Assembly (NCBI GenBank): GCA_007449985.2
Contig: VIIQ02000559.1
Span: forward strand, 712,501-776,500
From: Desmodesmus armatus
Lineage: Eukaryota > Chlorophyta > Chlorophyceae > Sphaeropleales > Scenedesmaceae
Reading direction: 5' to 3'
DNA length: 64,000 nt
How positions within the stretch are numbered: the first letter of the stretch is position 1; each line of letters begins with the position of its first letter. The position numbers and the translations under genes were made by a program. Below, in pieces: positions 1-64,000 of the stretch. The notes below the pieces were generated by a model, which ran no database searches, had not been told where the DNA came from, and saw only the letters and a program-made list of their open reading frames with translations.

Positions 1-436
1 GCAGCACCTTTGCCAGCCTGCTGTCTCCCCTATTAGTAGCCAACAATATCAGCCGAAAACAGTAATTTACAAGCGTGTCCTCGCCGTTGCCTTTACCTGC
101 TGGTGCGGGCTGGTGCTGCATGATGCGGGTCCCCGGGGGTGGCAGCTGGCCCAGTGGCACCCCAGACAGCAGAGCCTCAATGTCACTCTTGCTTTGTTTA
201 TGCAAGATTATGGTTACCGTAAAAGCGTGGGTATGCAGCCCACCCTGAAGTGCAGCACCTTTGCCAGCCTGCTGTCTCCCCTATCAGTAGCCAACAGTAC
301 CAGCCGAAAATAGTAATTTACAAGCGTATCCCCGTCGTTGCCTTTACCTGCTGGTGCAGGCTGGTGCTGCATGATGCGGGTCCCCGGGGGTGGCAGCTGG
401 CCCAGAGGCACCCCAGACAGCAGAGCCTCGATGTCA
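1..436. repeat. Tandem duplication of KHDC4-like exon 3 end (1-186 and 250-436)
   Basis: The two blocks are close copies with an offset of 249 bp. Each contains the 3' part of exon 3 plus its donor (GTAAAG on the minus strand) and following intron. Only the 250-436 copy is joined to the complete exon start and acceptor; the other lies inside the intron. Confidence 0.85.
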
Positions 437-2514
437 CTCGCTGCTGCATGCACAGCATTCCACCTTGCCTCATCAGTCTGCAGGGAGAGCGGCAGGCAGG
501 CGGGCAGGCGGGCAGGCAAGGTTTGAGATACAGTGGCCTGTTGGTGTGATACCCTTCGACCGAGCCCCAGGCATCGACCGCCCCCCTCCACTGGTACACC
601 CTGCCCCTCCACCATGTTCTCGCATAAACCTATCCATATACATCCACAAACGCATTGCACAGGCACAGGGGCAGATGGGTGAGGCTGGCAGGCGGGAGGG
701 GGGGGGGCAGGCCGTCAGGATTTGTAAAAAGATCAAACAAAATCATAAGGGGGGGGGGCATGATGCGTCTGGGGTCCAGCGTTCAGCATTTGCCATTGTG
801 AAGTGGATTCAACGCAAGTTAGATGCTGGCCGGTAACAAAGGTCCGCCCAAGTTGGCAGCAAGGCAGCGAAACACAAATAAGTTACAAAGAAAACCCAGC
901 ACATGACAATGTGCGATCAGTCAATCAATGTCACACCTGTAGCTATGACGCTCAGAACGTTCGAGCTTGAAGCTGATGCCAGTTGGATTCTTGGTGTAGC
1001 CTGTCTGCAGTGCTGCATGTGGACCCTTCCATATGCAGAGCTACAGACAGGCTTGACCGAAAGAATTCACATGGCCATGTGCTGCGGTTTCTCTGTCCCT
1101 GATTGCATGCATGCTCCTGCATTCTCTCTCCCGACCTGACAGCAAACGCCCACATACTACGCCCCCCCCCCCCCACCCCCGCCCCCACCTGACGACACTC
1201 ACTGTCCCAGACGGCTGCTGAGATTCCATGTACTGCCGGTTTCAATCACACTGCTAGGACTCCATACACGGCCTGTTTCAACCACACAGTACCCCCACCT
1301 GTCCTGCAGCAGCGGTGGGTGTCACCCTCAGGTACAGCGGCCGGTCTGTGCCAAAGGCATTGGCAGAACCCCCGGCACGTAGCGCCCCCCCCCCCCCCTA
1401 TCTCTGATCCTCACTCCACAACCCTGGTCCTAAGATCCCCACCCCCTGAAAACACGCACTCACGCGCAATCCATAAAGATCACATTACATGTATCTTGAG
1501 ACAACACAGAAGCTTCCGCTCACCTGTCCTGCAGCAGCGGTGGGGGTCACCCTCAGGTACAGCGGCCGGTCTGTGCCAGAGGCATTGGCAGACCCCCCCG
1601 GCACGTAGCGCCCCCGCACCACCAGCTGGGTGTTAGTCCGCTTGCTGATCTCATCCAGTGTCTGCCTCTTCGTCAGCAGCTGCCGAATGTGGTGTCCTGC
1701 ATCGTTGATCACCACCTCCCGGGCAATGTCCGGACCACTGCCCGGGAGCTTTGGGCCTACTGTTGTGGCTCCTGCGCCGCTGCTGCGGGGGCCGGAGTTG
1801 GTGTGCTGGAGAGCAGACACCACCTGGGCTGCTGCTGCTTGCTGCGCGATCGCTGCTGCCTGAGCTGCAGCAGCAGGGTTGAGGCCTGCAGCCTGCTTGT
1901 GACAGCGGTGGCGTGCAGTAGCAGGGGTGAAGCAGGCAGAGGGTGATGTGGGGTAGTGAGGTGGGCAGATGTGCAGAGATGTTGATGGCACAGTGCATTG
2001 TGTGGTGCATTGACAGTGCTGAGAGCAAGGGTGTTGAGAGAGAACAAGACGGGAACTAGTGCCTTAAGCAGCGGTTCTAAGGGCGGGTTCTAAGGGAGGT
2101 AACAAGCAACATTGTTAAATCACTGTGGACTCTGGACAACCCCAACCTAACCCCCCACCCCCCCCCCACACACACACACGCAATGGGCCATGCAGGTACC
2201 CACACTTGACACAACTACTTTCATTCAAGAGTTTGAAACTGAAAAGCAGTGGTGTCATGCGGAGACACATACACGGAAACAGCAACCACAGCACAGTGCT
2301 GCTGTCCACAGCCCCCCAAAGCAGAAGCTACCTCTATGCCATGCCAAGATGGCATGCACAGGCCACGTACCGCTGTAAGCTGATGTGCTGCCGCAAGGGC
2401 AGCCGCCTGCGCGTGCGCAATCATCTGAGAGGACACCTGCAGGCTGGTTCCACCCGCGGTCTGCGCAGGGACGGGCTGGTCCCACTTCCGCTTGCGTTCT
2501 GGTGGCTGAGCCAT
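1..2514 (-). CDS. KH-domain RNA-binding protein, KHDC4/BLOM7-like (5' part, runs off left edge)
   Basis: Exons read on the minus strand: 2371-2514, 1524-1892 and 348-477; the next exon lies beyond position 1. The start is the ATG at 2514. The first residues, MAQPPERKRKWDQPVP, carry the KWDQP signature that opens KHDC4 proteins. An Ala/Gln-rich stretch leads into a KH-like core: REVVINDAGHHIRQLLTKRQ, then DEISKRTNTQLVVRGRY and GTDRPLYLRV, which match the VEIND..LT..QT.DEIS...V.TRGR..DRPLYL pattern of KHDC4. Exon 3 continues as the helix EARWNAVHAAASDIEALL. All three exons are in phase 0 at their joins except the end of exon 3. KHDC4 relatives bind RNA and take part in splice-site selection. 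Two exons have partial duplicate copies in the neighbouring introns. The gene is head-to-head with the 2604 reading frame, 89 bp away. The family is fairly sure; the exact role in algae is inferred. Confidence 0.75.
1296..1615. repeat. Tandem duplication of KHDC4-like exon 2 end (1296-1390 and 1521-1615)
   Basis: About 95 bp repeated at an offset of 225 bp. It contains the end of exon 2 (coding for RPLYLRVTPTAAAGQ) and the intron donor. The 1521-1615 copy belongs to the full exon; the other is intronic with small changes. Confidence 0.85.
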
Positions 2515-4373: not shown

Positions 4374-7300
4374 ATGTCGCAACAACATTCAGCAAACCAC
4401 AGCCGACGGAACAGCGACAGTGACCACTCACAAGCTGACCAGCTCAGCAGCAGCAGAGTTGAGCGGGTCTTGAGCCATAACAGGCTGGACAGGTCCAGTG
4501 CCAGCCAGGCAGCGTCACACTCGCGAATTTCAAGTGCTGATTACATCATCACGGTCTCCCCTGGTGCAAGGACACCACCCCGGCGCCAGTCAGGTGAATT
4601 TCTTTCAATTCTACAACGGCTCGCACAGCACATGCCAGCGGCAGAGGAAATGGCACCTGAGCAACCAACCAGCTGCTACACTCATGCGGCTATGTTTTAC
4701 ACGTTTACTGTGTATGGGTGTGGGTGTTGGACGACCTCAAAGCCCCTTACCAGCACCATGCATGTTCAGCAGTGTCCTGCCAGTTTGCAGGCATGCAGAT
4801 GGCTCGAGTTGCAAGCCTGGTAGGGCCGCCTGGCACAGAAAAAGAGAGACCTTGCGCCACACAGAACCCTCGGCCCTTTGTACAGTTGCTGTGCTGCATC
4901 CTCTGTTGTGCTACAGGCTTCAACCCCCAGCAGCCAGGCGACACAGACATCGAGACAGGACCCAGCCCACAGCAGTCGCGCAGGAGCAGCAGCACATCTG
5001 TAGGACGCCTGCAAGCACTCCTGCAGTCTCATACCAACACCCAACCAACAGCAGCCGTCTCGGATCTCACACAGCCCTTACTGCAGGCAGAGGAGCCAGA
5101 CCAGCAGGACCCTAAACAGCAGCAGGAGCCCCTACCGTCCACCTCAGCACCCTATGATCCTTTTCCCGCCACTACAGCAGCGCGTGCAGCAGCCGCAGAA
5201 GTGGCCAGGGCGCGCGCGCTCGCAGCACACCGCCCTCACGCTGACCGTGCTGGGGGTGCTGCTGTGCTGGGGCGCTCTGTATCCTCGGCATCTGCAGGAG
5301 CAGTTGCAGGAACAAGTGGGGACAAAGCCACAGAGGCTGCGCGGTTCCAACGGCAGCTGGCGTTTGCTAGTGGGCTCAGCTGGGTGGTCAACATCGTGCT
5401 GCTGGTAGCAAAGCTGTATGCATACTGGCTCAGTCAGAGCAAGGCTGTGCTGGCCTCTGCAGCAGACAGTGCAGTGGACCTGGTGAGCACGGCTGCACTG
5501 CAGCGTTAGGGTTTGGCTCAGGGTTGGGGTTTAGGTAGGGTTGAGGGTTGAGGTTTGTGAACTTCTTAACCTTGGAACAGGAGCTGCTTCTACAGCATAC
5601 AGTGCAGTGGACTGATGAGGCCTGCAGCCTCCGTGTTGGGAAGCACAACTGACCAAGGATATCATTGTGCAATGCTGTTGAGCATTGTGGAGGTCTTGTG
5701 CTGAGCCCCATGTAGCATGACTGTGCAACCAGCCCAATTTGACATGATGATGCGTATATGCCTAGGAACAGGGAGTACGTTTGTTTGGCATAGCCTTCAT
5801 TCATATGTGTCTCACATCAGCTGGCCTCGTGCTTGCTGGAAAGGCGGGAAGTTGTGCTTGCTGGTGTCTTGGTTGGGGTGGGGCAGGGCGGCTCTCTTTC
5901 AGAACGCGAAAATTGCCCTGCTGTTTGTGCTGGACATGCACTGCCAACGCCACAACATGCGCACACGTCCTTGGCTGTGTCGTCATCCTTTTTTGTGTGG
6001 AAAACAGTCACTGTACGGTATGGTACCAAAGTTTCGCCCGTTGTGCTGTTGTGGCTGTTGCTGCAGGTCAGTCAGGTGGTGATATCCTATGCTGACTGGA
6101 GGGTGCGGCGGGAGGACCCGAGGTGCGTGCACTTGTCTGCACATACTAGGTTCCTGGCAGGGCCAGCACCTGCCAATATGCAGGTCTCTGGTGTCTCTGA
6201 CCTTGGGTCTGCGACGCTGCTGAAGCTCTGACCGCTCGTGTGCTGGGCTGTTTGTGACCACCATCGCCACCCAACCACCCTCCCGCCCTGCCTCTCCATC
6301 TCAGGTTTCCAGTGGGGCCGGCCCGCCTGGAAGCTATCGGTGTGCTGGCATGCGCGTGCATCATGTCTGTAGCATCCTTTGAAGTCATCTAGGAGTCCAT
6401 TTCAGCGGTGGTTGCCACCTACACGACCGGGCAGCGGCCACAGCTGGGCCTGGTGTTGTATCTGGTCCTCGGATCTGCGGCGCTGCTGAAGCTTGTGTGC
6501 TGGGCTGTTTGTGACCACAATTCCCACCCACCGACCCACCCACCCTCACGCCCTCCCAGGTTCCCAGTAGGGCAGGCCCGCCTGGAAGCTATCGGTGTGC
6601 TGGCATGCGCATGCATCATGTCTGTAGCATCCTTCGAAGTCATCCAAGAGTCTGTGTCAGCGGTGGTTGCCACCTACACGACTGGGCAGCGGCCACAGCT
6701 GGAGCTGGGCCTGGTGTTGTATCTGGTCCTCGGTTCTGCGACGCTGCTGAAGTTGGTGTGCTGGGCGGTTTGTGCGGCGCTGCAGAATCGGTCAGACAGC
6801 ATGCTGGCTCTCGCTGAGGTGCGCAGGGTCAGTGTTTAGGGTGTTAGGGTTTGAGGTGCGCAGACCATAACGGGTGGTGGTAGGGGCAATTGGGGCGCAT
6901 ACATACACCTAATGTTGTTACGTTGGTGTTCGTTGTTGCCGGGTTTAGGGTTTGGAGTGTAGGGTTTGTGCGGCGCTGCAGATTTGGTCGGACAGCATGC
7001 TGGCTCTCGCTGAGGTGCGCCGGGTGGCGGTATCATCCATCAGGGCGCATACATACACTTGACGTTGTTACGTTCGTCTTCTGTGTTGCCGGGTTAAGGG
7101 TTCAGGGTTTAGAGTGTAGGGTTTGTGCGGCGCGGCAAAATCGATCAGACAGCATGCTGGCTCTTGCTGAGGTGCGCAGACCATATGAGCAACAGCTGTG
7201 CTATCTTCCCCGCAGCGGCAGCAGGCCTGGTGCCCAATGCCCCATGTCCTGCTGTCCTGCTCACCTTCCCATTCACATCAGCACCGTGTGAATGGCCTGC

Positions 7301-10064
7301 GTCCTCATGCCTGCTTCACACACTGTGTGCTCTGCTCTGCTCTGCCCACCCGCCCGTCTGTAACCACACCATTGGCATGCTACAGGACCATCTCAACGAC
7401 ATCATGAGCAACAGCTGTGCTGTCTTCACAGCAGTTGCAGCCGAGCTTGTGCCCAATGCTCTGCTGTCCTGCTCACCCTCCATTCCACAATCTGCATGTC
7501 CATGCCTGCTTCACACACTGTGTGCACTGCTCTGCTCTGCCCACCCTTCTGCTTGCAACCACATCGTTGGCCTGGAACAGGACCATCTCAATGACATTAT
7601 GAGCAACAGCTGTGCTATATTCACAGCAGTGGCAGCGGGGCTGGTGCCCAATGGGTGGTGGATCGATCCTGCAGGAGCTATTGCCATCTCAGTCTACATT
7701 GTGACGCGCTGGCTCGCCATTGCAAAGCAGCAGGTAAGCAGCAGGTGACAGTGGGGGCAGGATGCACAGGCAAAGAGGGGGTGAGGTCACTGGGCCGCCT
7801 GCATTTCAGCCGAGGCAAAGAGTGTGCGCATGTGTGCACACATAGTTTGGGGGCTTGCGGGGTCGCAGCGTTGCTGTATGGCGTGCAAAAGCTTGGTTTC
7901 TTTCGCAGTGACAACTGGCTGTGCTGTGCTGTGATGTGCTGTGATGTGCGACAGGTGGACAAGATCATAGGGCGTGGTGCGCGCCATGTCATGGCCTGTG
8001 AAGCTTGCTTATTTGCGCAGTGACAACTGGCTGTGCTGTGCTTTGCTGTGATATGCGACAGGTGGACAAGATCATAGGGCGTGGTGCGCCAGTTGAGTTC
8101 ATCCTGCAGCTTGAGTCTCTGGCCAACAGCCACCATCAAGACATGGGGCTGGACTGCATGAGGGCCTACCACTTTGGAGCCAGGTGCGGCAAAACAGAAT
8201 TGGATGACATGCTCGTTTTGGATAAGCCGCATGTTGGCATTTTACCACCTCCCTAGACATTCACTGTTCCGCTGCTACTCTGCTACTTTGCAGCCTGAGA
8301 AGCTTCTGAGAAGCTGTAGTTGGCTTAGTGAGGCATGGCTCATGTTGTTGGCTTGGCGGGGTGATTGGTGCTGTTTGCTTGTTTGTGGGAGTGAAAGTTT
8401 GCATCACGCAAGACATGGGGCTGGACTGCATGCGGGCTTACCACTTTGGAGCCAGGTGGGGTGCAAAGTTGACGACGGTCCCTCTGGAATCAGCCGCAGG
8501 TGGATAAGCCGCAGCTGCTAGTCTGCTTCCCTGTTCGTCTGAGACGCTGCCACTGTGCTACTCGCAGAGGATGTGCGCCTTGTGGGGATTTGCTCGTTTT
8601 TGGGGAGTGTGTTGATTGCTGCACCTGGTGACGCAATTGCCAAGGACAGGCAGCTTCCCAGTGTTGCTGGGTATTTGGTGTATGGTGTCCTGTTGGTGTG
8701 TTGTTGTTGACGCCCACACAATACATGTTCCCAAGATTACCTGGTGTGTGCTGTTGCTGATTGTGCAGGTACATTGTGGAGATGGAGGTTGTGCTGCCTG
8801 CAGAGATGACTGGTTTTCTCGCAGCACACCCACCAGCACACTCTCTATCACACCCCCTTTCTATCCCAACCCCCAAACGCCACTTCTGCAGGTTTCCTAT
8901 TGGCCTCACCTCTTCTTGCCCGTATTCAGTAAGGGCTCAGGGTTAGCAATTGGTTTGTTGTTGCTGGTTTTGACACACCAAGAAAAACATATGTTGTGTT
9001 GTTTGCTGGTTGTGCAGGTACATTGTGGAGATGGAGGTTGTGCTGCCAGCAGAGATGACTGTCAAAGAAAGCCACGATATCTCACTGGAGCTGCAACACA
9101 AGGTATGAGAGCAATGACACCGGCACACCACCAGCACAACAGCAGCACCGCACGGCACAGCACGGCATGCCATGCAGCTTTACATGGCATGGCACGCCAT
9201 GCAATGCAGCTTTACACGGCGTTGTATGTGCTGAAACTGGGCCAGGTTAGTGCCACGGTTGGTTATGCTTTTGCTGGTGAACCACACTGCGAGAGTGCTT
9301 TTTGAAGGCAAGTAAAGCAGGCTCCACTTGCATCCACGTGTCTATATACAGCATCATGGTCCTGTGGTGCAGGCTATATAGGTACCTCACACCTGTTAGT
9401 GTGCGCACATGTGTGTTGCGCTTTGTGGATCCCCTGTGGGGTGTTCAGGCATTGCCTGAACCATCTAACAGTCAGTAACAATAACATCTGCCATGTGCCG
9501 TGTGGTGTGGATGCAGGTGGAGCAGCTAGAAGAGGTAGAGCGGGCCTTTGTACACGTCGACTACACCAAGCGGGATGGGCTGGAACACAAGGTGTGCTGA
9601 AGTGATATGTGGCGTACTGTGAACCACTTAGCCCCAGCACCGCTCCTCGACCGGGGAACCAGAACAACCCTAAACCCCGAAAGGCTCAGAACTTCCCTGA
9701 CTGGAACCATCTGTAGAGCTGTTTCCCTTGTTGCCTGCTGCATGCGCTGCCAAATGAAAGCATGAGGCATGCTCAGTGCTCCCAGTCAGGGTCTCCAGAT
9801 CGTTGACAGTTGTGGCAGCATGCCACGTCATGCACGAGTGGCAAAGTGCCATTGCACTGGACTCTGGCAGATTCTTGCCTCGGGTGCCTGTGTTACCACT
9901 CATCAACACATGCTCTGCATACGTCTGCCGCATGTGTCTGCACTGCTCTTCAGGTTGAGCGGGAGCTGGCAATCGCACAGGCGCTGTCCACCAGCAGCAG
10001 TGGGCGTCTCACCCCTGGGCTTGAGGGGGCTGGAGGCTCGGGAGCATTCGCTGCCAAGGCCTAG
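4374..10064 (+). CDS. MTP: Cation diffusion facilitator, Mn-CDF type (MTP8-11-like)
   Basis: Nine exons: 4374-4593, 4917-5482, 6067-6122, 6560-6818, 7581-7733, 8062-8183, 9018-9102, 9517-9591 and 9954-10064, giving 548 residues with all phases consistent. The end of exon 1 is the least certain boundary. The N-terminal ~170 residues are Ser/Gln-rich and cytosolic. The membrane core carries the two metal motifs DSAVD (TM2) and DHLND (TM5); DxxxD in both places marks the manganese group of CDFs, whereas zinc members have HxxxD. Other family blocks are RFPVGQARLEAIGVL, NGWWIDPAGAI and the cytosolic VRAY-like MRAYHFGARYIVEMEVVLPA, followed by ERAFVHVDY. The predicted role is proton-coupled Mn (or Fe) export from the cytosol into a vacuole or Golgi compartment. 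The introns are packed with partial copies of the following or preceding exon and with TTTAGGG-like tracts. Family assignment is firm, substrate inferred. Confidence 0.85.
6193..6823 (+). repeat. Three partial copies of CDF exon 4
   Basis: Copies of the exon 4 region lie at about 6193-6303 (tail part), 6302-6535 (most of the exon with an in-frame TAG after SFEVI) and 6558-6818 (intact, offset about 256 bp). The middle copy keeps its acceptor CAG but is a dead exon. Confidence 0.8.
6770..7185 (+). repeat. Donor side of CDF exon 4 in three copies, with TTTAGGG-like spacers
   Basis: The block coding NRSDSMLALAE followed by the donor GTGCGC occurs at about 6770, 6967 and 7125. Only the first is attached to the intact exon. 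The spacers contain degenerate GGGTTTAG words. Confidence 0.75.
7183..7650 (+). repeat. Start of CDF exon 5 in three copies
   Basis: The acceptor plus DHLNDIMSNSCA coding start occurs at about 7383 and 7579 and, without the first codons, at 7184. Only the last copy continues into the NGWWIDP part of the exon. Confidence 0.8.
7915..8460 (+). repeat. Both ends of CDF exon 6 duplicated
   Basis: The acceptor side (coding VDKIIGRGA) is repeated at about 7950-7990 and 8060-8090. The donor side (coding QDMGLDCMRAYHFGAR) is repeated at about 8138-8185 and 8409-8457. The intact exon is 8062-8183, lying between the two outer partial copies. Confidence 0.8.
8755..9070 (+). repeat. Start of CDF exon 7 in two copies
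   Basis: TGTGCAG followed by the coding block YIVEMEVVLPAEMT occurs at about 8762 and 9011. The first copy runs into unrelated sequence; the second is the intact exon 9018-9102. Confidence 0.85.
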
Positions 10065-20000: not shown

Positions 20001-21639
20001 CAAAACGTGTCACCCTCAAGAAGCTCCTGCGCAACCCAGCACACAGCATGCACATCAGCACGCAGCACATACAGCGGCGTATCAGGGGGTGATATCTGGA
20101 AGTTGAACCCCTGTGGTCTGTTGGCATTTCCCACGTCAACATTTGACATGGAATATGCCAACGGACCACAGAGGTTCAACTCCCATTAATGTCACCCTCC
20201 TGCACGTTCCTGCACGATCCAGCACACATCGACCCCTTGTGGACCCCTTGTGGTCTGTTGGCATACCCCGCCTTGAACATCTCCCCTGATATGACGCTGT
20301 GGGTTCTGTGTGCTGATACCAGCATACTAATCAGCACACTGGTGTCAACACACAACACTTATAGCGGCATATCAGGGGAGATGTTTGGGGTATTATATGC
20401 CAAGAGACCATGAGGGCTTCAACTCCTTTGTGTCGCCCTCCTTCACAGGCCTTTACACACAAGTTTTGCCATCCTGGCTGGATCGTTATGGTATGATTTG
20501 CATGCATTCCCTGACTTATGAACACATCGGCACAAACGAGTGACAATGGCATGCCAGGCAGTCACGCGTGGGGCGGGAATCTGCCGATAGCCGCACATGC
20601 GAGCAGCCAGGGAACGGCCACTAGTGCCCGTAGGCAGGAAACCGCTACACATCCAAGCAAAGCCAATGGCCAGGGCTGGAAGTTTGACGCACACACTCAC
20701 ACACCTTCATGGCTGCAAGGTGTTGGGTCATTTTCCCGCCTTCTGGAAACTGCGGGTTTGCTCCTGCCCAGTAGACCTTGATCAAAAAGTCCAGCACGCC
20801 CAGATCTCTGTCCCCACTGACGGGGGTGTAGGCGCGCACAACACCCTCACCATTGATGTCTGCATGAAAGGCACGAAGCAAGCACGGCTCATGGTCAGTG
20901 TCCCTCGGATCACGCATGCAAGGGGACAGATCACGCATGCAAGGGGACACGAGGTGAGAAAAAAGGGGTGATGTGATGTGGTGTGATGTGACGTGATCGG
21001 AGGGGACGGGAGGAAGGAGGTCTGAATCCCCACTGACGGGTGTGTAGGCGCGCACAACACCCTCACCATTGATGTCTGCATGCAAACAGACGAATGCCAC
21101 AGCATGATGAGTGAGAGATGCGCTTTTGCAGTCTGACTGCATTCATCGACATGCCCAGTGGGCAGCAAGAGACTCAAGCCGTCCTGGCAACAAAACTGCA
21201 CTCCGCCCCCAGAAGCTGCTGCCACTAACCACCTGCACAGAGGAACACGTGCTTGCCACACGGCAGCCCCGTCTTGAAATCTGGCCAGTCACAAAATGAC
21301 CACACCAGTATCCTGAACCCTACAGAAAGTGGCCGCATCTCCACCCATCCCTTGTGGACCTTGCAAGTACAGGCACAAAAGTGATGGAGGAGCCGCGCCA
21401 CACATCACAGCAGCAACTCACCCGCCACAAAGGAAGAAGTGCTTCCCAGACGGCAGCCCCATCTTGAAATCAGGCGCTGTCGTCACAAGCCCACACCAGT
21501 ACCTTCAACCCCAAGATCAACACCAACAGCTCTCCATCCATCCCTTGAGGGTCTATCAACCCCTTCGGCAAATGTGAAGTGACGTCAGCAGTCAAAGAAT
21601 TCAACCATAACCCCCCCTTCCACTAACACACACAAGATT

Positions 21640-52300: not shown

Positions 52301-55300
52301 GGGGGGGTGCAGTTTGTCGCCGCTGATTCATTGCAGAATAAGTTGCAATGAATCACTGAAGTTTGTTTGCACATACCATGTTGCACTCTCTTGCTGCAGG
52401 TGTGCGCATTGTTGCTGACTGTGTGTCCCCCTTGACTGTCATGTGCTACCCTTTTCTGCTTGCCACTTCACCCTAATGCAGTCCCAGCACGAGCAGCAGG
52501 TGTCCCACCTCAGCAGGCGCCTGCAGGAGGCCGAGGCTCATGCAGAGTCCTTGCAGCAGCAGCTGTCAGCAGCGGAAGTGGCGGCTGCCAGCGCCAGCAG
52601 TGCTGCCACCAATGCTGCCAGCAGCGCCAGCAGTGAGGTGGCTTCAGCTAGGGCTGATGCAGAGGCTGCGAGGAAGGAGCTGGGGACTGTCAGGGCGGAG
52701 GCGGAAGCTGACAAGAACAAGTGAGTAGGGTGGCTGGGGCTGTTGCACTCTGAGCTGATTTGTGGCGTCTGCTCCAAGAAAATGGTATGGTGGTGGTGGT
52801 GGTGGTGACGGTTGCGGTTGTTTGAAGGGGGGGGGAGAGGTGGCGGCGGCTGCCAGCGCCAGCAGTGCTGCCAGCAGTGCAAGCAGTGAGGTGGCTGCAG
52901 CTAGGGCTGATGCAGAGGCTGCGAGGAAGGAGCTGGGGACTGTCAGGGCGGAGGCGGAGGCTGACAAGATTAAGTGAGTGGGGTGACTTTGGCTGTTGCA
53001 TTCTAGCCAGAGTTTTGGCGTCTGCTCCAAGTGAATGGTATGGTGGTGGTGATGGTGTTCGTGGTGGTTTTGGGGGTGGGGTGGGGTGGGGTGGGGGGGG
53101 GGGGGGTGAGCATGTGGCTGCTGCCAGCGCCAGCAGAGCTGCCAGCAGTGCTGCCAGCAGTGCTGCCAGCAGTGCAAGCAGTGAGGTGGCTGCGGCGAGG
53201 GCTGATGCAGAGGCTGCGAGGAAGGAGGTGGGGACAGTCAGGGCACAGGCGGAAGCTGACAAAAACAAGTGAGTCATTGCGAGTTGTGTTAGCCTGGTGG
53301 TGTGTGCTGCAGAGTGTTGCACTCTTGGCAGGCTTGTGGCGTCTGCTGTAAGCGTCGTGGCGGTGGTGTTGAGCCTTTGGCAGAGGCACTGACATCCCTG
53401 CTTGCACACAACCATTTGTCCATGGCCACCCCTTATCCATGCTCTTTGTGCTGTCCTCCCCTGCATTCGAGCTGCTGTGATGTACTATGAAAGGCGGTCC
53501 TGCACTGTACTGCGCTGTACTGCAGTGGACTGCACCGTACTGCACAGCATTCAGGCTGCTGCAGGCCCTGCAAGACTCCAAGAGGGCTGTGGCCAAGCTC
53601 ACCAAGGGGAAGCACAGTGCTGACCTGGCCCCTCACGCACTGATGACCCCTATCACCACAAACTGACTTGCATTCCTGCTTGCACACATACCTCTGATCC
53701 CATCACAAGCTCTGCTGCATGCTCTTTGTGCTGTCCTCGGCTATGCATTCAAGCGTTAATGTGTTCTGATGTACTGTACTGCACTGTACTGTACTGCACC
53801 TTATTGCACTGCATTCAGGCTGCTGCGGGCCCTGCAAGATTCCAAGAGGGCTGTAGCCAAGCTCACCAAGGAGAAGCACAGTGCTGACCTCACAGCAGCA
53901 GAGCTGAGGGGCAAGGCAGAGGCGGAGCGGGACAGTCAGCGCATGGAGGTGCAGATGGCGCAGCAGCAGCTGGATGCTGCTCGGGCTCAGGTGGTGCGGC
54001 TTGAGGGCGACATCAAAGACTACAAGGCCAGGGCGCAGGTGAGCTGGTGGGGTGGTGGTTTAGCGGAAAATGGACTGGTGTACGGCACGCGTTGCGGGGC
54101 ACTATCATGAGCCCTTGGCTCGCTGGCTTGTGCTGAGGTTTGCTATTCCCTCCCACAATAGCTGTACTGTACTGTACTGCACTGTACTGTACTGTCATTG
54201 TCACTATTGCAGACGCTCCTGCGTGCCAAGGATGCGGAGATCGCCGCTGCGAGAGATGCCGCAGCCGCGGCTGCCAACAGCAGCACCACCCCTGCCAACC
54301 TTGCGCGCTCACCCCCTGTGCCACACTGCTGTAATTGTCCCTATCGCAGACGCTCCTGCGTGCTAAAGACGCGGAGATCGCTGCCGTGAGAGATGCCGCA
54401 TCCGCGGCCGCCAACAGCAGCACCACCACGCAGGCCTTGCAGGCAGAGGTGGCTCAGCTGAAGCAGCTACTGGAGAGTGCGGGGGAGGCTGCGCAGCAGC
54501 AGCTGCACACGCAGCATGCGCAGCACCAGCAGGCACTGCAGTCTTTGGAGGCGGAGGTCTCTCAGGTATGTAGCCCTGCAGGGTGTCGAGCCCGTCCAGG
54601 GGATGGATGATCCTCGTTGCGTTGGTCTTCTCATCGCACTTTGGTAACACCAGAGCACCGCAAAGCACCATGGTTGCATATAAGTGTACTCAGACCTAAA
54701 TTTGTCAAGCACCAGTCTTTGGAGGCGGAGGTCTCTCAGGTTAGCAGCCCTGGCTGTTGCTTTGTGTGAAGTCCTCCGTCCTCCGTAATGGGACTCTGAT
54801 CCCTTTTTGGCGTCTTCTCTGCTCCGTTGGCATGGCCCGTATCTTGTTACATTGATCCTCCTGCCAAAGTCAGGACACACCTGACCACACCCTATCATGC
54901 ACAGTCAAACCCGCGCGCCTGACAGCTCCTTCCGCATAAGGTGATGTTCTGACTCAGCAACGCCTCCCTGTAGCAATCCGCGCGCGTTGTTACAGCGTGT
55001 TTTGCACCCCCTCCATTGACAACACAAACAGCATCGTATGTTTGTTACTACGCCACGAACAACGTCACTGTTTGTGACCGTATCGCAGGCCAAGAGCTCT
55101 GCTGGGTACTACCAGCAGCTCGCGCAGGAGACGGCAACAGCCCCTTCCGCCTAGATTGGCGCTCTTTTTCGACCGCTTGTCAACCGCTCCTCAACTGCTT
55201 CTCCCACTCAATTCTGTGATCGCAGGCCAAGAGCTCTGCAGGGTACTACCAGCAGCTGGCACAGGAGACTGCAACAAGCCTCGACGAGGTGAAGCAGTCT

Positions 55301-58300
55301 CTCGCTGCTGCAGAAGACGCGCTGCATCAAGCTCGCGAGGAGCTGAAATCCGCGACAGCGGCCCAGCGAGCGCGCCAGCGGGGGCAGCTGTCAGTCCTAC
55401 GAGAGGATGAGGTTGCAGCTGGGGGCGGGGCGGCGGGAGTGGGATCTGCTGCTGCTGCGGAGACAGCGGCGCTGCAGCAACAGAAGCAGCAGCTGGCGCA
55501 GCAAGTGGAACAGCTGCAGCTCAAGCTGGCACAAGTTCAGGTGGGAGGGCCCGGGGAGTATACCCCCAAAAGGCAGCGATGTAAACAGAATTACGCAATT
55601 AGTTTCATTCATGGTAACTACTCAGAGTAGAGAGAGTGATAGCACAGAAGCAGCATTATGCAGCGGCAGTTTCAACTTCCCTTCCAACCTGGCTGGCCGA
55701 GGGCTGTGCCGACCGATGCCAAGTGCATGGCTGCAGGAGGGCCGTCGATCACTCAAGGCAATCCCCAGCCGCTATGTTGGATGCTGTTCCAGGCCTTGGT
55801 TGGTCTGTCAGCATTAGCTGACCGAGGGCTGTGCTGACCGATTCATATATGCATAGCCGCTGGTCACGCAATCGACCACTGAGGCTATGTTCCATGCTGT
55901 TTGAGGCATGCTTTGTGGCAATTCCGGACATTTTGCCCTGTGCTTTGCTATGCTATGCTGTGCTGAGCAATGCTGTGCTGTCCGAATCTGCAGGAGGAAC
56001 ACCGTTCTCTCAAGGCCACTTCTGAAGCCATGCTAGAAGCCAAAGACAGCGAGCTTCTTGCGGCACTGCGCAAGACAGCCCTGCTCACAGAAGAGCTCGG
56101 CCAGCTACGCCAGCAGCAGCAGCAGCACGCGCGGCAGCCGTCGCTGTCGGCGGCAGCCGCCGCCCATCAGCAGCAGCAGCAAGCGCAGGGGCGTATCAGC
56201 AGCAGCAGCGCGGTTGATGCGGGTGGCAGCCTGGGGGGCGAGGTGTTTGGGGTGGTGGCGGGAGGGGATGATGGCAGCAGCTTGCCTAGCAGACATGACG
56301 GGAGTGGGCCAATGACAGCTGCTGCCTACTGCAGCCAGCAACTGCTGACAGGCTACACTGCTTCTGAACCAGGTGAGAGAGGTGCAAGCGTTTCGTGATG
56401 CATATGGGATGGGGATTGGGGAGGGGGTGTTTGGAATGGAGGGGATTGGACTTCGGGGGGGGGGGGGGGGGGGGGGTGCTGTTGCTCTCGCTCGCTGCGA
56501 TAAGGGACATCAGCATGGCAATCTTTGTACGAGGGCGGTGCAGGGCAAGCATGTAGAGATGGACAGCAGGGCCCTAGCCAGCGCAGGACACGCCCCGCGA
56601 GAGCCTCTGGCAAGGGCATCAGCTGAGCTGGAACGTGTAAATTTTAGTGGTTTCCTCTTGCGTTGCGGTCATTGTCAGCATCCCTCACCTAGTTGAGTTG
56701 CTGCATGGAGTAACTCCATATTGCAAGGTGAGCACAAGGGCCTTTTAGAACAAAACTTGACCTTGTGCCAGGTTCTGCTTGTGCGGAAATTCGTCCGTCT
56801 TGGCGTTCAGCCCTGTTGCCAATATCCTGCTCTGTTTCACAACTTTTGCCAACCCTTTCCTGCTGCTTACAGATATCTTGGAAAGCATCTTCGCAACCCC
56901 ATCCACCGAGCCTCCCGCCACAGCCTACAGCCAGCCCGCCATGCACGACAGCAGCAGCCACAGCGGCCAGGCATTCACCCACAGCGCCTCTCTGCCGGCC
57001 CTGGGCAGTGGCTTCAGCAGCAGCCAGCAGCAGGAGCTGCTCGAACGGCTGAGGAGTGCGGGGGGTCTGCTGCCGGATGGGGTGGAGTCGCTGGTCAGTT
57101 TGGCGGCTAAGCAGGCAGCAAAGGAGGAAGAGCTTGCTAGCCTGCGCACACAGGTAAGAGGGGCACGGCGTGTGCATGCTGGTGAAGTTTGACTGCTGTC
57201 GGGTTACGTAAGGACGATTTCAGCGGAAGAGCAGCGGGGGCCCGGGGGGGGGGGGGGGGATGTATGGCGTTGCTGAGGCATGCACCCGCCCACCTGCACA
57301 CTGTGCACACACTGACATACAGCCACACCCAAGCCCACCTCTGCACCCTCCTGCCCAGACTCCAAATCACTCAGTGTAGTGTTGCTGCCAGGGGGCTCAG
57401 ACCTGCCAGGTTTTAGGGTTTAGTGAAGTGGGAGCTGGCGCTGCAGGGTCATAGTGGACAGACCCTGAGAAAGGAAACCTACACAATCACACTCTCTCAC
57501 ACATGTCATCTTTTTGCACTACCCTTGTCCTTCCCCACTCCATCCTCACTTCAGATCACTGTGCTGAAGGCTGAGGGTCTCAGACCTTCAGACAGAGAAG
57601 GAGCTGACAGTGCGTGATGAGATGCAGCAAGTGACATGAGACACCCAAACCACACACAAACCAACTCACCACACAAACCAACTCAAAACACAACTCGGAT
57701 TTTACACACTTCTTTCCTTGCCCTGTTTTCCTCACTCTTTCCGCTCACTCCAGATCACTGTGCTGGAGGCTGAGGTGTCAGACCTTGAGAAGGAGTTGAC
57801 ACTGCGTGATGAGATGCAGCAGTGACATGAGACACCCAACCACACACAAACCAACTCACCACACAAACAAACTAAAGCACAACACTGCTTTCCTTGCACC
57901 GCTGCTCTCTCTCTTCCCGCTCACTCCAGATCACTGTGCTGGAGGCTGAGGTCTCAGACCTTGAGAAGGAGTTGACACTGCGTGATGAGATGGAGGCAGC
58001 ACTCAAGGAGACACTCAATTCGACACTAAAACACTCATACACCTGAGAAACCCATGCATCACTTTCCGCTCCCACTGACACTGCGTGATGAGATGGAGGC
58101 AGCGCAGAAGGAGACACCCCCAACCCGACAATAAATCACTCATACATCTGATTACAAACATGCATCACCTCCCTCTCCCAACCTGTGCCCCCTCCAGATC
58201 ACTTTGCTGGAGGCAGAGGTTTCAAACCTCAAAAAGGAGCTGACCCTTTGATAGCGCTCACGGGAGACACCCAACCATACACAACTCAAACCACACACAA

Positions 58301-60137
58301 CCAAAACATCACACACGTCTTCCCTTGCACTGCTTTCCTCACTCTTCCCGCTCACTCCAGATCACTGTGCTGGAGGCTGAGGTTTCTGACCTTGAGAAGG
58401 AGCTCACACTGCGTGATGAGATGGAGGCAGCACTCAAGGAGACACTGCGTGAGCTGGAGAGGGCAGCAGCACGGCAGCAGACAGCAGGCCACCAGGTGAG
58501 ACCTAGCTGGGTATCATGCAGAGATTGGGGGTTTTGAAACCACACCCCTAGCTCCTGCTACCGAGCAAGATATCCCTGCTATGAAAGAGAAGAGGACGGG
58601 GGCTTAGTCTCATGGGCTTGAGAGGTCAACAGCCCGCACCAAACAGCGGGTCACCAGGTGAAACCCAGCTTGCCACAATGCCAAGGTGTTGGTCTGACGC
58701 CACAATTGTAGCTCCCGCCACCAAGCAATGTGACCCTGCTATGGAAGAGAAGGAAGGCTTAGTCTCATGGGCTGCAGAGGGCAGCAGCCCGGCAGCAGAC
58801 ATCAGGTCACCGCGTGCGATCTTGTAAGCTTGGGTAGGCAAGCTCCACGCATCATGCCGCTGCTGCTGCATGGACATCGCTCTGTGAACCTGAACCCGAA
58901 ACCATGTGCCATGCCGTGTGGTGTGCTGCTTGCTGGCATCTGATGACGCTGCATGTTGTGCTATGCTGTGCTGTGCTGTTTGGCACGTTGCTGTGCTGTG
59001 CTGTTTGGCACGTTGCTGTGCTGTGCTGTGCTGTGCTGTGCAGACATACATGGAGTACCTCAAGAACCTTATCATGCAGTTGTACACCACTGCCGTTTAG
59101 CCTGATTAGTGCATTGCTGGCATCTGTTGACACCGCATGCTGTTCTGTGCTGTGCTGTGCAGACGGACATGGAGTACCTCAAGAACCTTATCATGCAGCT
59201 GTACACCACTGCCGTTTAGCCTGATTAGTGCATTGCTGGCATCTGTTGACACCGCATGCTGTTCTGTGCTGTGCTGTGCAGACGGACATGGAGTACCTCA
59301 AGAACCTTATCATGCAGCTGTACACCACTGGGGAGGCAGAGGCCCTGCTGCCTGTCTTCACCCGCCTGCTGTCACTCGGACCCGAGGACGTCAAACGTTG
59401 CAGACAGGTGTGTGGGCAGAGTGGATGTGTGTTGACTTATGGCTCGCATTTGTGTTTGACACATTACTTGCAACCAGCCATCGCATCTTGCGTCAGCATA
59501 GTGAGTGCATGCAGATACACATTACAACATGTCTGCAAGGATAGGCAGACAAGGATGCTGGTACAGCAAGTTAGGGCGGAGTGTGTGTGGAGCGGAGTGT
59601 GGCATAGAGTTGCGTGTGTCAATAAAGGGAGTGTATGAGCGGGTCACCTTGTGTGTGCGGGGTGGTTCTGGTGGGAAGGGGGGGCCTCTGTTGAGCACAT
59701 CGCCTCTGTCTGTGCTCCAGTGCCCAAGTCAATGACATGCTGTCTTGTGCTATTTTGTGCTGCTGTCTTGCGCTGTGTTGACAGCACCAAACAAGGGGCA
59801 GGGGGTCAGCATGGGCTGTGCTGTTCCTCGGCCACCATCCGTTCTGTCGCAAGCCTCATAGTTTATCGACTCGTGCTGCACTGTGCTGTGATGTGCTGTG
59901 CCGTGCTGCCTCTCTCAGGGTCTCGAGCAGCTGGCGTCAGGCACTGTGCCGCTACCGGGAGCTGCAGCAGCAGTCGACTCTGCCAGCAGCATGTTCAGTG
60001 GGTGGGGCTCCTGGCTAGGCATGTCAGCCGGGGGCCCTGCAGCACCAGCAGCAGCCGACGCTGCAAGCGGCAGCCCGCTTGCTCGCAAGGGCAGCAGCAT
60101 GAGCAACGTCAGCAGTCACAGCAAGCTGGGGGTGTAG
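46378..60137 (+). CDS. Large coiled-coil golgin with C-terminal GRIP domain
   Basis: Fifteen exons: 46378-46386, 46583-46688, 46872-46918, 47341-47596, 47939-49515, 49965-52034, 52482-52720, 53819-54038, 54350-54565, 55226-55540, 55994-56372, 56873-57153, 58361-58495, 59282-59407 and 59919-60137; 2064 residues, all phases agree. The N-terminus (MAERSSVVSQLANKSREELE, then QLVVKLLKDLKQQSKK) resembles GRIP golgins. Residues ~140-1430 are continuous Gln/Ala/Leu heptad coiled coil with tandem repeats. Exon 14 (residues 1951-1992) is the GRIP domain: DMEYLKNLIMQLYTTGE, ALLPVFTRLLSLGPEDVKRC, including the conserved Tyr needed for binding the Arl1 GTPase at the trans-Golgi. A Ser/Gly/Ala tail follows. 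The predicted role is vesicle tethering at the trans-Golgi. Introns hold partial copies of exons 7, 8, 9, 10, 13, 14 and 15. Optional in-frame exons may exist at 52857-52973 and 53128-53268. Confidence 0.88.
48180..49300 (+). repeat. In-frame coding repeats of the golgin coiled coil
   Basis: Near-identical coding units carry ADLASELEAAKAAAAAAEEQ followed by LQQLQQD and LQQLQQGS. They repeat at least five times within exon 5, with the reading frame kept. Confidence 0.85.
50660..50860 (+). repeat. 24-residue coding repeat in golgin exon 6
   Basis: Three consecutive copies of a unit carrying QQQLQEAESAREQLQ followed by QAQQQLADA, almost identical at the DNA level. Confidence 0.85.
52600..53270 (+). 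repeat. Golgin exon 7 end in three copies, each with a GTGAGT donor
   Basis: The segment coding ASSEVA.ARADAEAARKE and what follows occurs in exon 7 (to 52720), at 52857-52973 and at 53128-53268. The two extra copies start after CTGCCAG, are 117 and 141 nt long (whole codons) and would splice in the same phase. Confidence 0.8.
53541..53925 (+). repeat. Start of golgin exon 8 in two copies
   Basis: CATTCAG followed by coding LLQALQDSKRAVAKLTK occurs at about 53541 and, intact, at 53819. The first copy has no donor. Confidence 0.85.
54205..54435 (+). repeat. Start of golgin exon 9 in two copies
   Basis: GCAG followed by coding TLLRAKDAEIAA occurs at about 54213 and, intact, at 54350. A copy of the exon 9 end is also found at about 54711-54740. 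Confidence 0.85.
55085..55290 (+). repeat. Start of golgin exon 10 in two copies
   Basis: TCGCAG plus coding AKSSAGYYQQLAQETAT occurs at about 55090 and, intact, at 55226. The first copy has a Gly to Trp change and no donor. Confidence 0.85.
57553..58495 (+). repeat. Start of golgin exon 13 in five copies
   Basis: CAG plus coding ITVLEAEVSDLEKELTLRDE (with variants) occurs at about 57555, 57754, 57930, 58197 and, intact, 58361. A further fragment is at about 58075. The early copies run into stops or lack donors. Confidence 0.85.
59041..59340 (+). repeat. Start of golgin GRIP exon 14 in three copies, 119-bp unit
   Basis: Copies begin at about 59043, 59163 and 59282. The first two code MEYLKNLIMQLYTTAV then TAG; the third continues as the true GRIP exon. 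Copies 2 and 3 are virtually identical over the whole unit, so this duplication is recent. Confidence 0.9.
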
Positions 60138-60373
60138 GTGTCTTGTGAGATAGGCACATACCTTGTGTATGTTTGGCATTTGTCGGGCATACAGCTGCTT
60201 TCTGGAGCCGAAGCAGCAAAATTTTCAGTGGGTGGGGCTCCTGGCTAGGCATGTCAGCCGGGACCCCTACAGCAGCTGCCGAAGATGCACCCGGTAGCCT
60301 GCTTGCGCGTAAAGGCAGCAGCATGAGCAACGTCAGCAGTCACAGCAAGCTGGGGGTGCAGGTGTCAGTGTGA
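59990..60373 (+). repeat. Golgin last exon duplicated downstream
   Basis: The end of exon 15 (coding FSGWGSWLGMSAG and SSMSNVSSHSKLGV) is repeated at about 60228-60373. There the stop codon is replaced and the frame runs on to TGA. Confidence 0.85.
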
Positions 60374-62474
60374 CAGGTATCATAGTGCATGTTTGCCGTC
60401 GGCTTGGTGGTGTGGGTGTGAGATTAGGTAGTGATGGGCTTGGCGCAGGTGTCTGGCAGGTGCGAAGAGTGGCTAATGCCACAGCCTCAGCAAGTATGGA
60501 GTGATCCCCATGTTGCCCTTCTGCCTCAATGTTGAGGTTATGATCAGCCTTGCAGTTGTGGACCATGTTGTGCTCTATGGCGGGGTGCGGCTGGTTCACT
60601 GAGTAGTACAACCTACCAGGCTCTACAGTGCAGTACAGGAACTTGGGGACAGACTCCTCTGCACTAGCCAGTGAGCCAAGGGCTGACAAGGCTCTTTCAC
60701 TTGTCATACAGGCAGGGCCGGCAGCAAGTGATCCTTACGGTCTATCTGGGTGTGTGATTTGTGACTGCGCTGTTGGCCTGGTCGGTGTGTGGTGATGCGC
60801 ACGGTCATGTGTGTGCTGTACTGGCAATGTAAGCATGTGGTGCTGAGTTGTAGTAAGGTTGCAGAGGCTGAAGCTGCCGTGTCTGTCAACGAAAAGACGT
60901 GGTTAGTGATGCATGTGCATGTGCAGCTGAAGCTAGACGAGCTTTGGGGCCCACAAAACCCTTGGCTCGCTGTGACATGAAGGTGTCTGGCCAGTTGCTG
61001 CCCTTCTGCTGATGTGGTGCTCAGTGTTTGCTGAGCACCACTGTAACTGGCAGCCTTCAAAGGACAAACACAAGACTGACATGGTGTGAGAGCACTGTGT
61101 TACATTCATGTCGCACCTCAAGCTACGAACCTCAGAGACCCGATGTCGGCCATTCGTTGACCTTTCACTGCTAAACAAACATTAGACCAACAACACACGA
61201 CAGTTTCAACAAACATGACATACAGCAGTCAGGTAGTACAGGTGGTACATGTTGTACACTAGTCAACCAAGTGCCTGAAACCATGCCTTCTGGCTTGACA
61301 CTGCATGTGTGCATGCCTGACTGACTGACACACCCAATCTGCTTGCACATTGGCATCACAATGGACAGCAGCCAACACCACAGCCAACAGCCAGGCCACT
61401 CAGAAGGGACCAGCTCCACTTGCAGGTCGCCTATCAACAGCAATGCATGCAAAGCATGACCAAATGAGCCCACACGGCCCCCGCACCACCACTGCTGTGA
61501 TGCTGTCTGTATGCAGACATCACCCGGGGCGGGGCAGCAAGTCTCTTGAGCAGCATGAACACCCTACCCTCGTGCATATATGCTCTGCCGGTGCACTGCG
61601 ATGGCAGTACACCTGGATGGTATGGCAACAGCCATTGGCAGCCCTCAATGGCAGATGCCCTCACGGCAGCAGAACCTACTCTTTGCCCTCATGCCTTGCA
61701 TAAACTCTGCTACTGCATGTAGCAGCCAACGGCTACACGATTGCCGGGCATTGCATTTGCCAACCCCTAATACAAATGCCAGCCGACTGCAGCACGGCCG
61801 CTGGCTGCATTGCAGCTGCCATGACAGCTGCTGCAAGTACAGCGCCTGTCGCGCTGTTGCTGCTTCAGAGGTCACCAAGGGCGGCACTGCCAACTGCTGC
61901 AGGTGCAGGTTTGCGAAGGAAATCACCACCGAGCTGCTGGTCACAATGGACAGCAGACACCCTAACATCACCTGCACCTGCACCCTGACACCTTGCGAAG
62001 CCAACACTGCGCACCTGCGTGCATGTGCTGGCCCCTCCGCCTGGGCAGCTGCCGGGCATCGCAGCTGCAACCACGGCTGCCGCGCTGTTGCTACTACGAA
62101 TGGCTGCTGCTTGCGCAGCTGCAACCGCTACACGTGCAGGTCTGTCAAGAAACACCACCGGCCTGCTGGTCACGGTGGACAGCAGGCACCCTGACGGCAG
62201 CAGCGCCTGCATCTGCACCCTTACACCAATACTGCGTGCCTGCATAAGCATGTGCTAGCCAACAGGCATCGCACCTGCAACCATTGCCGTTGCGGCGCCT
62301 GCCGCTCTGTTGCTACTACTGCTTCACCGCCACAAGGTGCAGGTGCACGTTCGCAGAGCACCATCAAATTAGTGGTTGTGAGGTCAAGCCGCCCATGGCT
62401 GCGTTTGCAGCAGCACCCAGACTGTCGTACTGCTCAAGGGTCCCTTGAGAACTGCAGTCACACACAGCAGCTAG
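60138..62474. other. Convergent interval between golgin and AMMECR1 genes
   Basis: 2.3 kb between two gene 3' ends. It contains a copy of the golgin last exon (about 60228-60373) and a tandem repeat with a unit of roughly 230 bp (61800-62370). A TGTAA word at about 61041 could serve the golgin 3' UTR. No gene was seen. Confidence 0.4.
61800..62370. repeat. Tandem repeat of about 230 bp, 2-3 copies
   Basis: Blocks around GCGCTGTTGCT and CTGCTGGTCAC.(A/G)TGGACAGC recur at offsets of roughly 233 and 225 bp. The block lies in the presumed 3' UTR or flank of the AMMECR1 gene. No conserved reading frame. Confidence 0.65.
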
Positions 62475-64000
62475 CTAGTTTGGAGCGAACGCAAGCCGCA
62501 ACCTGCCGCTCTTGCTGCTGCTGCCGCTCTTGCTGGTGCTGCTCTGTAGCAGCTGCTGCACGTCTGCGACTCCCAGCCTGTTGCTGCAGCTGCTGCTGTA
62601 CTCTGAGAATGACAGCGCTGCTTTGCTGCTTTGGTAGCGAGTCACCTTCAAGCTGTCTAACAGCTCGTCGGTCGGATGCCCAGCATAACCTGCGACAAGA
62701 GTACAGGACAGTACAGGCACTCACACATGCTAGCTACACATGCATCCTCAATGCCTAACACACTGCAATACAGGCAGTCAGGTCAGGGCCCAGCATAACC
62801 TGCGACATGCAGTACAGGACAGTACAGGCCCTCAGAGAGCGAAAGAGAGAGATGATGCGGAGTGCTAGGCACGCCGCGTTGGTTAAGGAGAAAACGTGTC
62901 CACCGTTCCCCCAGTACAGGCCCTCACACACTGCAATACAGGCAGTAAGGTCATACGGCATCTTATTCACCTGCTTTGCACTGACCCTGCCCCCCCCCCC
63001 CCCCCCCAAAGAGGCACACATCCAGGTGAATCATGTCTTCATCATTCGGGTTTCAAGGCCCTATTCAGGCTTTCAAGGCCCTATTCCCTGCCCTATTCAA
63101 TGAATACTGTGCCATCCGGCACTGTTACGGTACATCCCAATTGTCCTGCTGGGTGACAGGTCTGGTTGCAAATCACTGGGCCCTCTTCATCAACAGGCAC
63201 ACATACATCACTACTTTGACTGTCCAAGTTGAGCAGAACGTGCTCTATACACCCTGCAACATGTGTGTCAACAACACCTTGATATCACGAAGACACTCCC
63301 CACTAGTAGAGACACCAGAAGATATCAAGAAACCCACCTGCTTTCCGCACCAGCGACTCTATGCACTGCCGCTGCGACCAACCCTGATCCCCTGCCACCT
63401 CTGGCAGGAAAGTGGCAGTGCGCTTGCACTGCAGCGACGGATCTGTGAACTCTATGATGAGCCCGTGAGAGCCTATCTGCCAGTCCTGCCAGCTGTCAGC
63501 ACGTTCAAAACTGCACAGCAGCGAGACTGAGCAGCTGAGGTGTGCAACCTCTTTCAGCTGCACTGGGGAGAAGCGGGAGTCACGAAGGGCACTGCAGGAA
63601 GGACAACGAAGGGTTAGTGGCGGAGCAGGGAAGACATAGCAGCAGCAGGGTTCGGGCAGTGGCAGAGTGGCAGCTTCTGCTGCAACCCGTGCTGGTGGTG
63701 CTGGAGTTCATATGCATCAGCTGACAAGTACTCGTGAACGTCTTTGGCACTGCTGCAATACTGTTGGTGACGGATGACGGTGTTGAAGCAGCAACAGCAC
63801 CACCCAGTGCAGACTCAGCACATGCTTACCTTGTCAGCGCATAGTCTTTCAGCGCTGTGTGCAGCTGGCGCGGCTCCAGTGTGCCTATGCAGCCACGTAA
63901 CTGACCAGGCTTGCCCCACGAGCCTGCTTTGGTCCAAGTAACGAAGAGTGGGCTGCACATGTTGCAAGTGATGCTGCTGTCAGCAGCTGAATGGGCCAGG
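62475..64000 (-). CDS. AMMECR1: AMMECR1 family protein (3' part; runs off right edge)
   Basis: Three exons seen on the minus strand: 63830 to beyond 64000, 63338-63591 and 62475-62689. The first visible exon gives MCSPLFVTWTKAG and the family hallmark QLRGCIGTLEPRQLHTALKD. The second continues YALTSALRDSRFSPV across the join, then SVSLLCSFERADSWQDWQIG, HGLIIEFTD, KRTATFLPEVAGDQGWSQRQ and SLVRKAG. The last exon has LLDSLKVTRYQSSKAALSF and a family-atypical Ser/Lys-rich tail ending FAPN. Phases agree at both joins. AMMECR1 domains are conserved from archaea to humans and plants; the biochemical function is not settled, and the LRGCIG motif is thought to be the functional core. The start lies outside the window. 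The acceptor of the last exon has a duplicate at about 62789-62808. Family call is firm. Confidence 0.9.
62679..62808. repeat. AMMECR1 last-exon acceptor duplicated
   Basis: GCCCAGCATAACCTGCGAC, the acceptor and first bases of the last exon (minus strand), occurs at 62679-62697 and again at about 62790-62808, followed in both cases by a TACAGGACAGTACAGGC-like stretch. Confidence 0.8.

Follow-up and report, generated by a model that had tools for sequence, protein, structure and literature searches.

A tandem duplication model of intron gain was reportedly put forward by Rogers in 1989. Introners are dispersed elements that change the intron content of a genome in a lineage-specific manner. 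Here, small local duplications that cover a splice junction are described from the green alga Desmodesmus armatus, in a window of 64,000 nucleotides (positions 712501-776500 of contig VIIQ02000559.1, hereafter C530, which is 789,314 bp long, from an assembly whose 831 contigs total 115.8 Mb). Tandem genomic duplication has been reviewed as a route of intron gain (PMC3443670). There, as in the alga, small tandem duplications within a gene alter its exon–intron structure; the model duplicates an exonic AGGT to yield a new intron, whereas in the alga existing introns grow. Tandem duplication has also been proposed as the source of near intron pairs in Drosophila (Lehmann et al. 2010, PMC2891723). 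Regional tandem duplication in or around coding sequence changes introns in both cases, but the Drosophila account concerns novel intron positions, while the alga has arrays of decayed exon edges. A tandem duplication in the potato RdRp gene takes in the 3′ portion of an intron together with the 5′ portion of the exon that follows; the authors verified it with both read and RNA data (Ma, Lan and Niu 2016, PMC4974935). The duplicated piece spans an intron–exon boundary, as in the alga. However, the potato duplication is a single case with a new intron and added exon sequence, whereas the alga has many decaying copies that act as intron filler, several per junction. Unlike the dispersed introners, the algal copies derive from the adjoining junction (in 264 kb of C530, 246 of 294 direct pairs lie within 1 kb of each other). 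The kind of mutation is already known; as far as was found, its density, serial decay and junction bias are undescribed, and the open literature searched gave no account of decayed exon edges in dense arrays or of such a pattern in green algae.

The favoured explanation, with a probability of roughly 0.72, is recurrent local duplication across splice junctions, neutral decay of the extra copy and stepwise growth of the intron. Short stretches of the gene-bearing DNA of C530 would be duplicated locally time after time, for the most part in head-to-tail order. If such a stretch includes a splice junction, one copy would stay joined to the exon and keep working, namely the last one at acceptors and the first one at donors. 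The other would land in the intron and, being unpreserved, mutate freely as a pseudo-exon, with the real exon changing mainly at silent sites. A single junction could shed copies repeatedly, lengthening the intron step by step, and purely exonic duplications would mostly be eliminated by selection. We infer that the copies are spliced out and ignored. The copies themselves, their geometry, near-neutral decay and serial origin, and their excess at junctions over random placement are shown for C530.

The main sample is a continuous 264 kb of C530, formed by the window and the 200 kb to its left, to which the counts below refer unless stated otherwise; the comparison sample consists of seven stretches from other contigs (L024-L030, 61.3 kb in total). 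Self-comparison of the 264 kb with the Basic Local Alignment Search Tool (BLAST) gave 274 local direct pairs (offset below 2 kb), 22 local inverted pairs and 42 other pairs. These proportions do not show dispersal within the 264 kb, and an introner or other transposable element was rejected as the source. The local direct pairs group into 94 clusters. Exons were called with a home-made gene finder (periodic coding model, splice-site matrices and dynamic programming), seeded by a hand exon model of the hybrid-cluster-protein gene and retrained on the 264 kb. All models rest on the sequence of one assembly, and every exon comes from the finder trained on the same 264 kb. Its output of 27 genes and 458 exons includes 354 reliable exons (score of at least 15) with 346 acceptors and 337 donors, or 683 junctions. 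The finder takes some extra copies for exons and fuses certain adjacent genes. Three predicted products have Pfam support: the cation-efflux protein, the nitrate-reductase-like protein and a glutamate dehydrogenase encoded left of the window; the names glycosyltransferase, NEDD8-like and transporter stem from an earlier sequence-only reading of the window or from recognition by eye. The hand model of the hybrid-cluster-protein gene (24.7-31.9 kb) yields a product that aligns with five homologues, and these hold the duplicated exons once, in line with the favoured explanation. Its best match reaches 87-88%, with 74-75% for Tetradesmus obliquus and 63-72% for two Scenedesmus strains, which points to a green alga in or close to Scenedesmaceae; a Pfam scan of the gene's first exon gave no match.

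Within the window, self-BLAST found 64 local direct pairs and 15 others. The window holds 42 pairs of a junction and its copy, 34 of them in the expected geometry, i.e., with the real exon edge at the last copy on the acceptor side or the first on the donor side. Since these fall at 21 distinct junctions, the claim of the sequence-only reading that there are at least 20 such duplications stands. Its range from near-identical to decayed copies was likewise borne out, from 98% (59019-59330) down to about 70%. The single-exon glycosyltransferase gene (14.3-15.6 kb) has no local direct pair, and neither does the region between 30 and 44 kb that holds the NEDD8-like gene (36-39 kb), both in agreement with that reading. 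The statement that all multi-exon genes over 2.5 kb other than the NEDD8-like gene are affected was too wide, as the transporter gene at about 43-46 kb has one junction pair, in the wrong geometry (44802/44490).

Across the 264 kb there are 156 junction/copy pairs, 114 in the expected geometry, and at least one copy so arranged is found at 73 of the 683 reliable junctions (45/346 acceptors and 28/337 donors). The rule that the last copy is intact at acceptors and the first at donors is followed by partial-exon pairs (89 of 104), but not by whole-exon pairs (25 of 52). For partial copies the rule is forced, because only that copy remains attached to the rest of the exon; the geometry was thus discarded as a signature of the process. 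Identities span about 70% to 100%, multi-copy families are serial, and recurrent junction-spanning duplication of mixed age was upheld. The duplications also go with longer introns, as had been proposed: introns with a copy have a median of 429 nt (n=39), against 288 nt for those without (n=233).

Assigned by their best pair, the 94 clusters comprise 64 at junctions, 15 in introns, 6 in exons, 5 exon-versus-intron, 1 exon-versus-intergenic and 3 intergenic. With exon-versus-other cases counted as junction, 70 of the 85 junction-or-intron clusters (82%) span a junction. A null simulation placed random tandem duplications on the collapsed sequence, aged them by substitutions and short indels and applied the same BLAST settings; its junction share was 46% (0.461; 12 replicates, 603 detected events), and a simpler simulation gave 48%. 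The complete tandem events with 85% identity or more number 12, and all lie at junctions, compared with 114 of 296 simulated events (39%; 146 intron, 36 intergenic). Events of at least 95% identity number 10 at junctions and 1 in an intron, where 5.8 at junctions were expected, a result matched in 4 of 1000 shuffles. Changing the exon score cut-off to 10 or 20 gave 10/11 and 9/11 at junctions, with 6.4 and 4.8 expected (11 and 10 of 1000 shuffles). A second method, Tandem Repeats Finder, placed 16 of 18 arrays with periods of 121-300 at junctions (null 6.6). Junction-spanning arrays numbered 4 of 7 at periods of 61-120 (null 1.5) and 1 of 9 at 31-60 (null 0.6); in the control of periods 12-30, 3 of 90 were at a junction (null 1.2), with 50 in introns versus 57. 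Of local inverted pairs within 1 kb, a further control in the 264 kb, 0 of 20 fell on junctions.

Could survival and detection alone create such a bias? Duplications would then land anywhere, and those touching an exon would stay recognisable longer, one copy being frozen by selection and undeletable. Random pieces of such size that are not wholly exonic do meet a junction in nearly half of cases, and exon-edge copies are often still 90% identical where their intron parts have faded. On the other hand, decay simulated by substitutions and short indels and followed by the same BLAST search arrives at 46%, and even doubled odds of survival for junction events raise the expectation to only 63%, against the observed 82% (p about 9e-5, the cluster tests assuming independent clusters). 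The youngest events are biased as well. Survival alone seems too weak to account for the junction bias, and as the full explanation it is considered doubtful. It accounts for part of the excess of exon-edge over intron-only pieces; the young events suggest that mutation, or selection at an early stage, is biased.

A second rival, entertained tentatively, is that mutation itself favours stretches containing exons, for example through transcription or exon chromatin. It fits with the bias in the youngest events, with the lack of bias for short tandem repeats and inverted repeats, and with a density that varies by gene. However, young events are few, the effect was not seen in the 61.3 kb elsewhere, and a breakpoint signature was not found, G/C runs at copy edges being near background. 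Runs of G or C as the trigger were rejected: 5 of 106 copy edges have 6 or more in a row within 30 nt (null 2.9).

The ageing of the copies was followed by codon position. Across 26 families with at least two copies, the copy closer to the exon has 14/10/19 changes of its own at positions 1/2/3 (p for a position-3 excess 0.088), the more distant copy 23/16/55, and the real exon 2/5/38. Such a pattern would be expected from a constrained exon that sheds free copies at different times. The near-neutral distribution in the copy most like the exon lends no support to the earlier suggestion of exon experimentation. In the 33 events with alignable intron parts (z >5), differences amount to 0.062 at positions 1+2, 0.168 at position 3 and 0.152 in the intron, with gaps in 0.118 of intron columns. 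The ratio is close to 1:2:2, as would hold for a free copy with silent sites and introns free on both sides.

Several results weigh against the favoured explanation. In 15 of the 104 partial-copy pairs the geometry is wrong. Taking one pair per junction, the real exon and its copy differ by 0.075, 0.067 and 0.193 at codon positions 1, 2 and 3; the resulting position-3 excess of 2.73 (bootstrap 2.37-3.25) is above the 2 allowed for a freely decaying copy. Base composition was rejected as its source (predicted 0.070 versus observed 0.193). A head-to-tail arrangement is evident in the 12 complete tandem events, but 17 of the 40 events with z <5 (of 73) have a spacer without homology to the flank at p 0.01 or better, and are therefore not plain tandem duplications. 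Their exon copies are not clearly older than others; they may be tandem duplications that were trimmed later, or local copies inserted at a distance. In the comparison stretches, the 11 clusters divide into 6 intergenic, 4 intron and 1 junction, and with 1/5 junction-or-intron clusters (null 0.37) the junction bias is not seen in the 61.3 kb of other contigs. Their 1 junction cluster per 122 reliable junctions compares with 66/642 on C530 under the same 10-kb scheme (Fisher p 0.00015), and the counts are the same at a stricter and at a matched E-value threshold. The enrichment at splice junctions, first gained as a visual impression, is thus supported in the 264 kb of C530 but did not repeat in the small sample from other contigs.

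A function of the copies, as alternative or mutually exclusive exon parts or as regulatory decoys, is favoured by the position-3 excess above 2 and by the splice-site letters preserved in many copies (18 events displayed). Partial copies, however, have one splice site by construction, the copies in the hybrid-cluster-protein gene carry length-changing insertions (by eye), and copy-specific changes are near neutral. A function is accordingly very improbable. Mutually exclusive exons in particular were rejected on these neutral changes and on the 104 of 156 pairs that are partial, the 52 whole-exon pairs being judged in bulk only.

An assembly artefact, in which two diverged haplotypes were joined in tandem, would suit the minority of events with similar exon but dissimilar intron parts, as well as the silent-biased differences. 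Yet the spread of identities does not correspond to one haplotype distance, and families of three to five copies show a serial pattern. The silent bias is about equal in the classes with and without intron homology, on which ground diverged haplotypes were also rejected as the source of the latter class. Overall, an artefact is improbable. Least credible is intron birth by exon duplication after the model of Rogers, whereby the introns themselves came from duplicated exon pieces. The type of mutation is the same, but 33 of the 73 events (z >5) show clear intron homology, carrying intron sequence next to the junction, and the intron therefore pre-dated the duplication. In these events the duplicated piece is not purely exonic, as it would be, with AGGT, in a Rogers-type gain.

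Recurrent duplication across junctions is not evenly spread. Four of the comparison stretches are gene-rich: L024, L026 and L028 lack clusters, and L029 has one at a junction and one in an intron. The clusters of the gene-poor L025, L027 and L030 are intergenic or intronic. On C530 itself, 17 genes with at least 10 junctions differ in copy density (chi-square p about 0.001); the description of the duplications as present "throughout" was too strong for genes and genomic places alike. Exon-overlap scans of other genes were read by eye, with uncalibrated sensitivity. The C530 hybrid-cluster-protein gene gave three matches in which a portion of the query recurs next to the true exon. A second such gene (G000:C783:29973-34132) shows no clear exon copies; the sole exception, an overlap of 18 residues shared by two adjacent matches, may be an alignment that extends into the intron. 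Genes of the glutamate-dehydrogenase type give overlapping matches on C530, C87, C356 and C172 (by eye), kinesins about two candidates among the matches listed (153 in all), and TCP1 one or two among 72 matches. In view of the overlaps on C87, C356 and C172 and the uneven counts, the process seems to reach beyond C530, yet in a patchy manner. A mating-type or otherwise special contig was dismissed, as those predicted products that were read by eye look like ordinary housekeeping genes. It is conceivable, if unlikely, that an active and regionally switched process duplicates pieces of 100-300 bp with a preference for those that cross exon edges, possibly under the guidance of transcription or splicing chromatin, and so acts as a ratchet for intron growth.

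Table 1. Duplication sites in the window (positions are those of the window; percentages are identities between copies).
Positions	Strand	Feature	Details
1-439 (1-188, 252-439)	-	Tandem copies, with more upstream of the window	Unit about 251 bp; predicted exons and introns of a minus-strand gene; 94.7%; cluster about 98% over 598 bp across the window edge
1296-1623	-	Donor-side copy	Real donor 1524, copy 1299; 94% over 99 nt exon; no clear intron homology (z 1.3)
6189-6774	+	Acceptor-side tandem duplication, cation-efflux gene	Unit about 255 bp; real acceptor 6576, copy 6321; 93% over 193 nt exon; Pfam Cation_efflux on part of product
6767-7179	+	Three copies of exon end and donor	Real donor 6818, copy 7171, further copy 6963-7023
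7184-7653	+	Three exon-edge copies	Spacing about 200-220 bp; exon weakly called; from self-BLAST
7889-8089	+	Acceptor-side tandem duplication	Real acceptor 8062, copy 7955; 87% over 94 bp; unit about 112 bp
8137-8461	+	Donor-side copy	Real donor 8183, copy 8455; 96% over 47 nt exon
8747-9061	+	Acceptor-side copy	Real acceptor 9018, copy 8769; 98% over 44 nt exon
20811-21085	-	Acceptor-side copy, nitrate-reductase-like gene	Real 20859, copy 21075; 98% over 49 nt exon; Pfam Cyt-b5 and FAD_binding_6 on product
21210-22165	-	Array of exon end and donor	Real donor 22106; copies 21864, 21682, 21423, 21233; 81-94%
22191-22429	-	Acceptor-side copy	Real 22256, copy 22407; 82% over 65 nt
22475-22878	-	Four copies of exon end and donor	Real donor 22840; copies 22718, 22599, 22486; 86-92%
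26550-27027	+	Four copies of intron end and exon start, hybrid-cluster-protein gene	Last is the working exon (26950-27142); copies 77-92%; hand exon model backed by homologues at 71-88%
29333-29941	+	Three copies of exon end and donor, hybrid-cluster-protein gene	First is working (exon 29262-29424); 90-91% over 92 nt; both extra copies with insertions (by eye)
52580-53274	+	Three copies of exon end and donor, long coiled-coil-like gene	78-91%; gene finder calls all three exons
53393-53890	+	Acceptor-side duplication	Real 53819, copy 53555; 94% over 72 nt exon
54192-54427	+	Acceptor-side duplication	Real 54350, copy 54213; 90% over 78 nt
54539-54752	+	Donor-side copy	Real 54565, copy 54739; 27 nt exon identical
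55082-55276	+	Acceptor-side copy	Real 55226, copy 55089; 92% over 51 nt; no intron homology past the splice site
57531-58446	+	Five copies of intron end and exon start	Last is working, real acceptor 58361; 82-95%
58450-58822	+	Three copies of exon end and donor	Real donor 58495; 80-85%
59019-59330	+	Three near-identical acceptor-side copies	Unit 119 bp; real acceptor 59282; 97.9% over 193 bp
59984-60395	+	Late exon region duplication	82% over 193 bp; pair 60361/60137 outside the expected geometry
61891-62319	-	Old duplication of exon and its edges, right-end gene	72% over 209 bp; poor gene model

The nitrate-reductase-like and hybrid-cluster-protein genes adjoin on opposite strands (20000-31920). 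A uroporphyrin-methyltransferase-like product (by eye) lies about 173 kb left of the window, and nitrogen-assimilation genes may be loosely grouped in this region. In intronic sequence of the nitrate-reductase-like gene (18968-20451), a family of repeats, both tandem and inverted, with offsets near 240 and 780 bp and palindromes, resembles nested small mobile elements more than exon copies. In the hybrid-cluster-protein gene, a run of 33 G (29575-29607) stands directly before a decayed exon copy, and the copies of another gene also follow G-rich stretches. A sequence of about 55-59 bp occurs at 30717-30782, 35276-35342 and 37189-37244 in both orientations (87-93%) and may be a dispersed repeat of small size. 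Long imperfect palindromes or inverted pairs of mobile-element-like appearance are found at 33158-33318, at 44501-44708, and at 34767-34929 with 36741-36910.

The origin of long introns is debated, with transposons as the usual answer. About one in nine reliable junctions of C530 carries a fossil duplication that left the gene working, and intron growth therefore becomes countable, datable and comparable between genes. The hybrid-cluster-protein paralogue on C783 provides a natural comparison for the gene in the window. Automatic annotation is likely to be misled by the copies, several of which were taken for exons by the home-made gene finder. Each copy is a datable pseudo-exon beside a real exon, and the two together form a natural experiment on the rejection of wrong sites by splicing.

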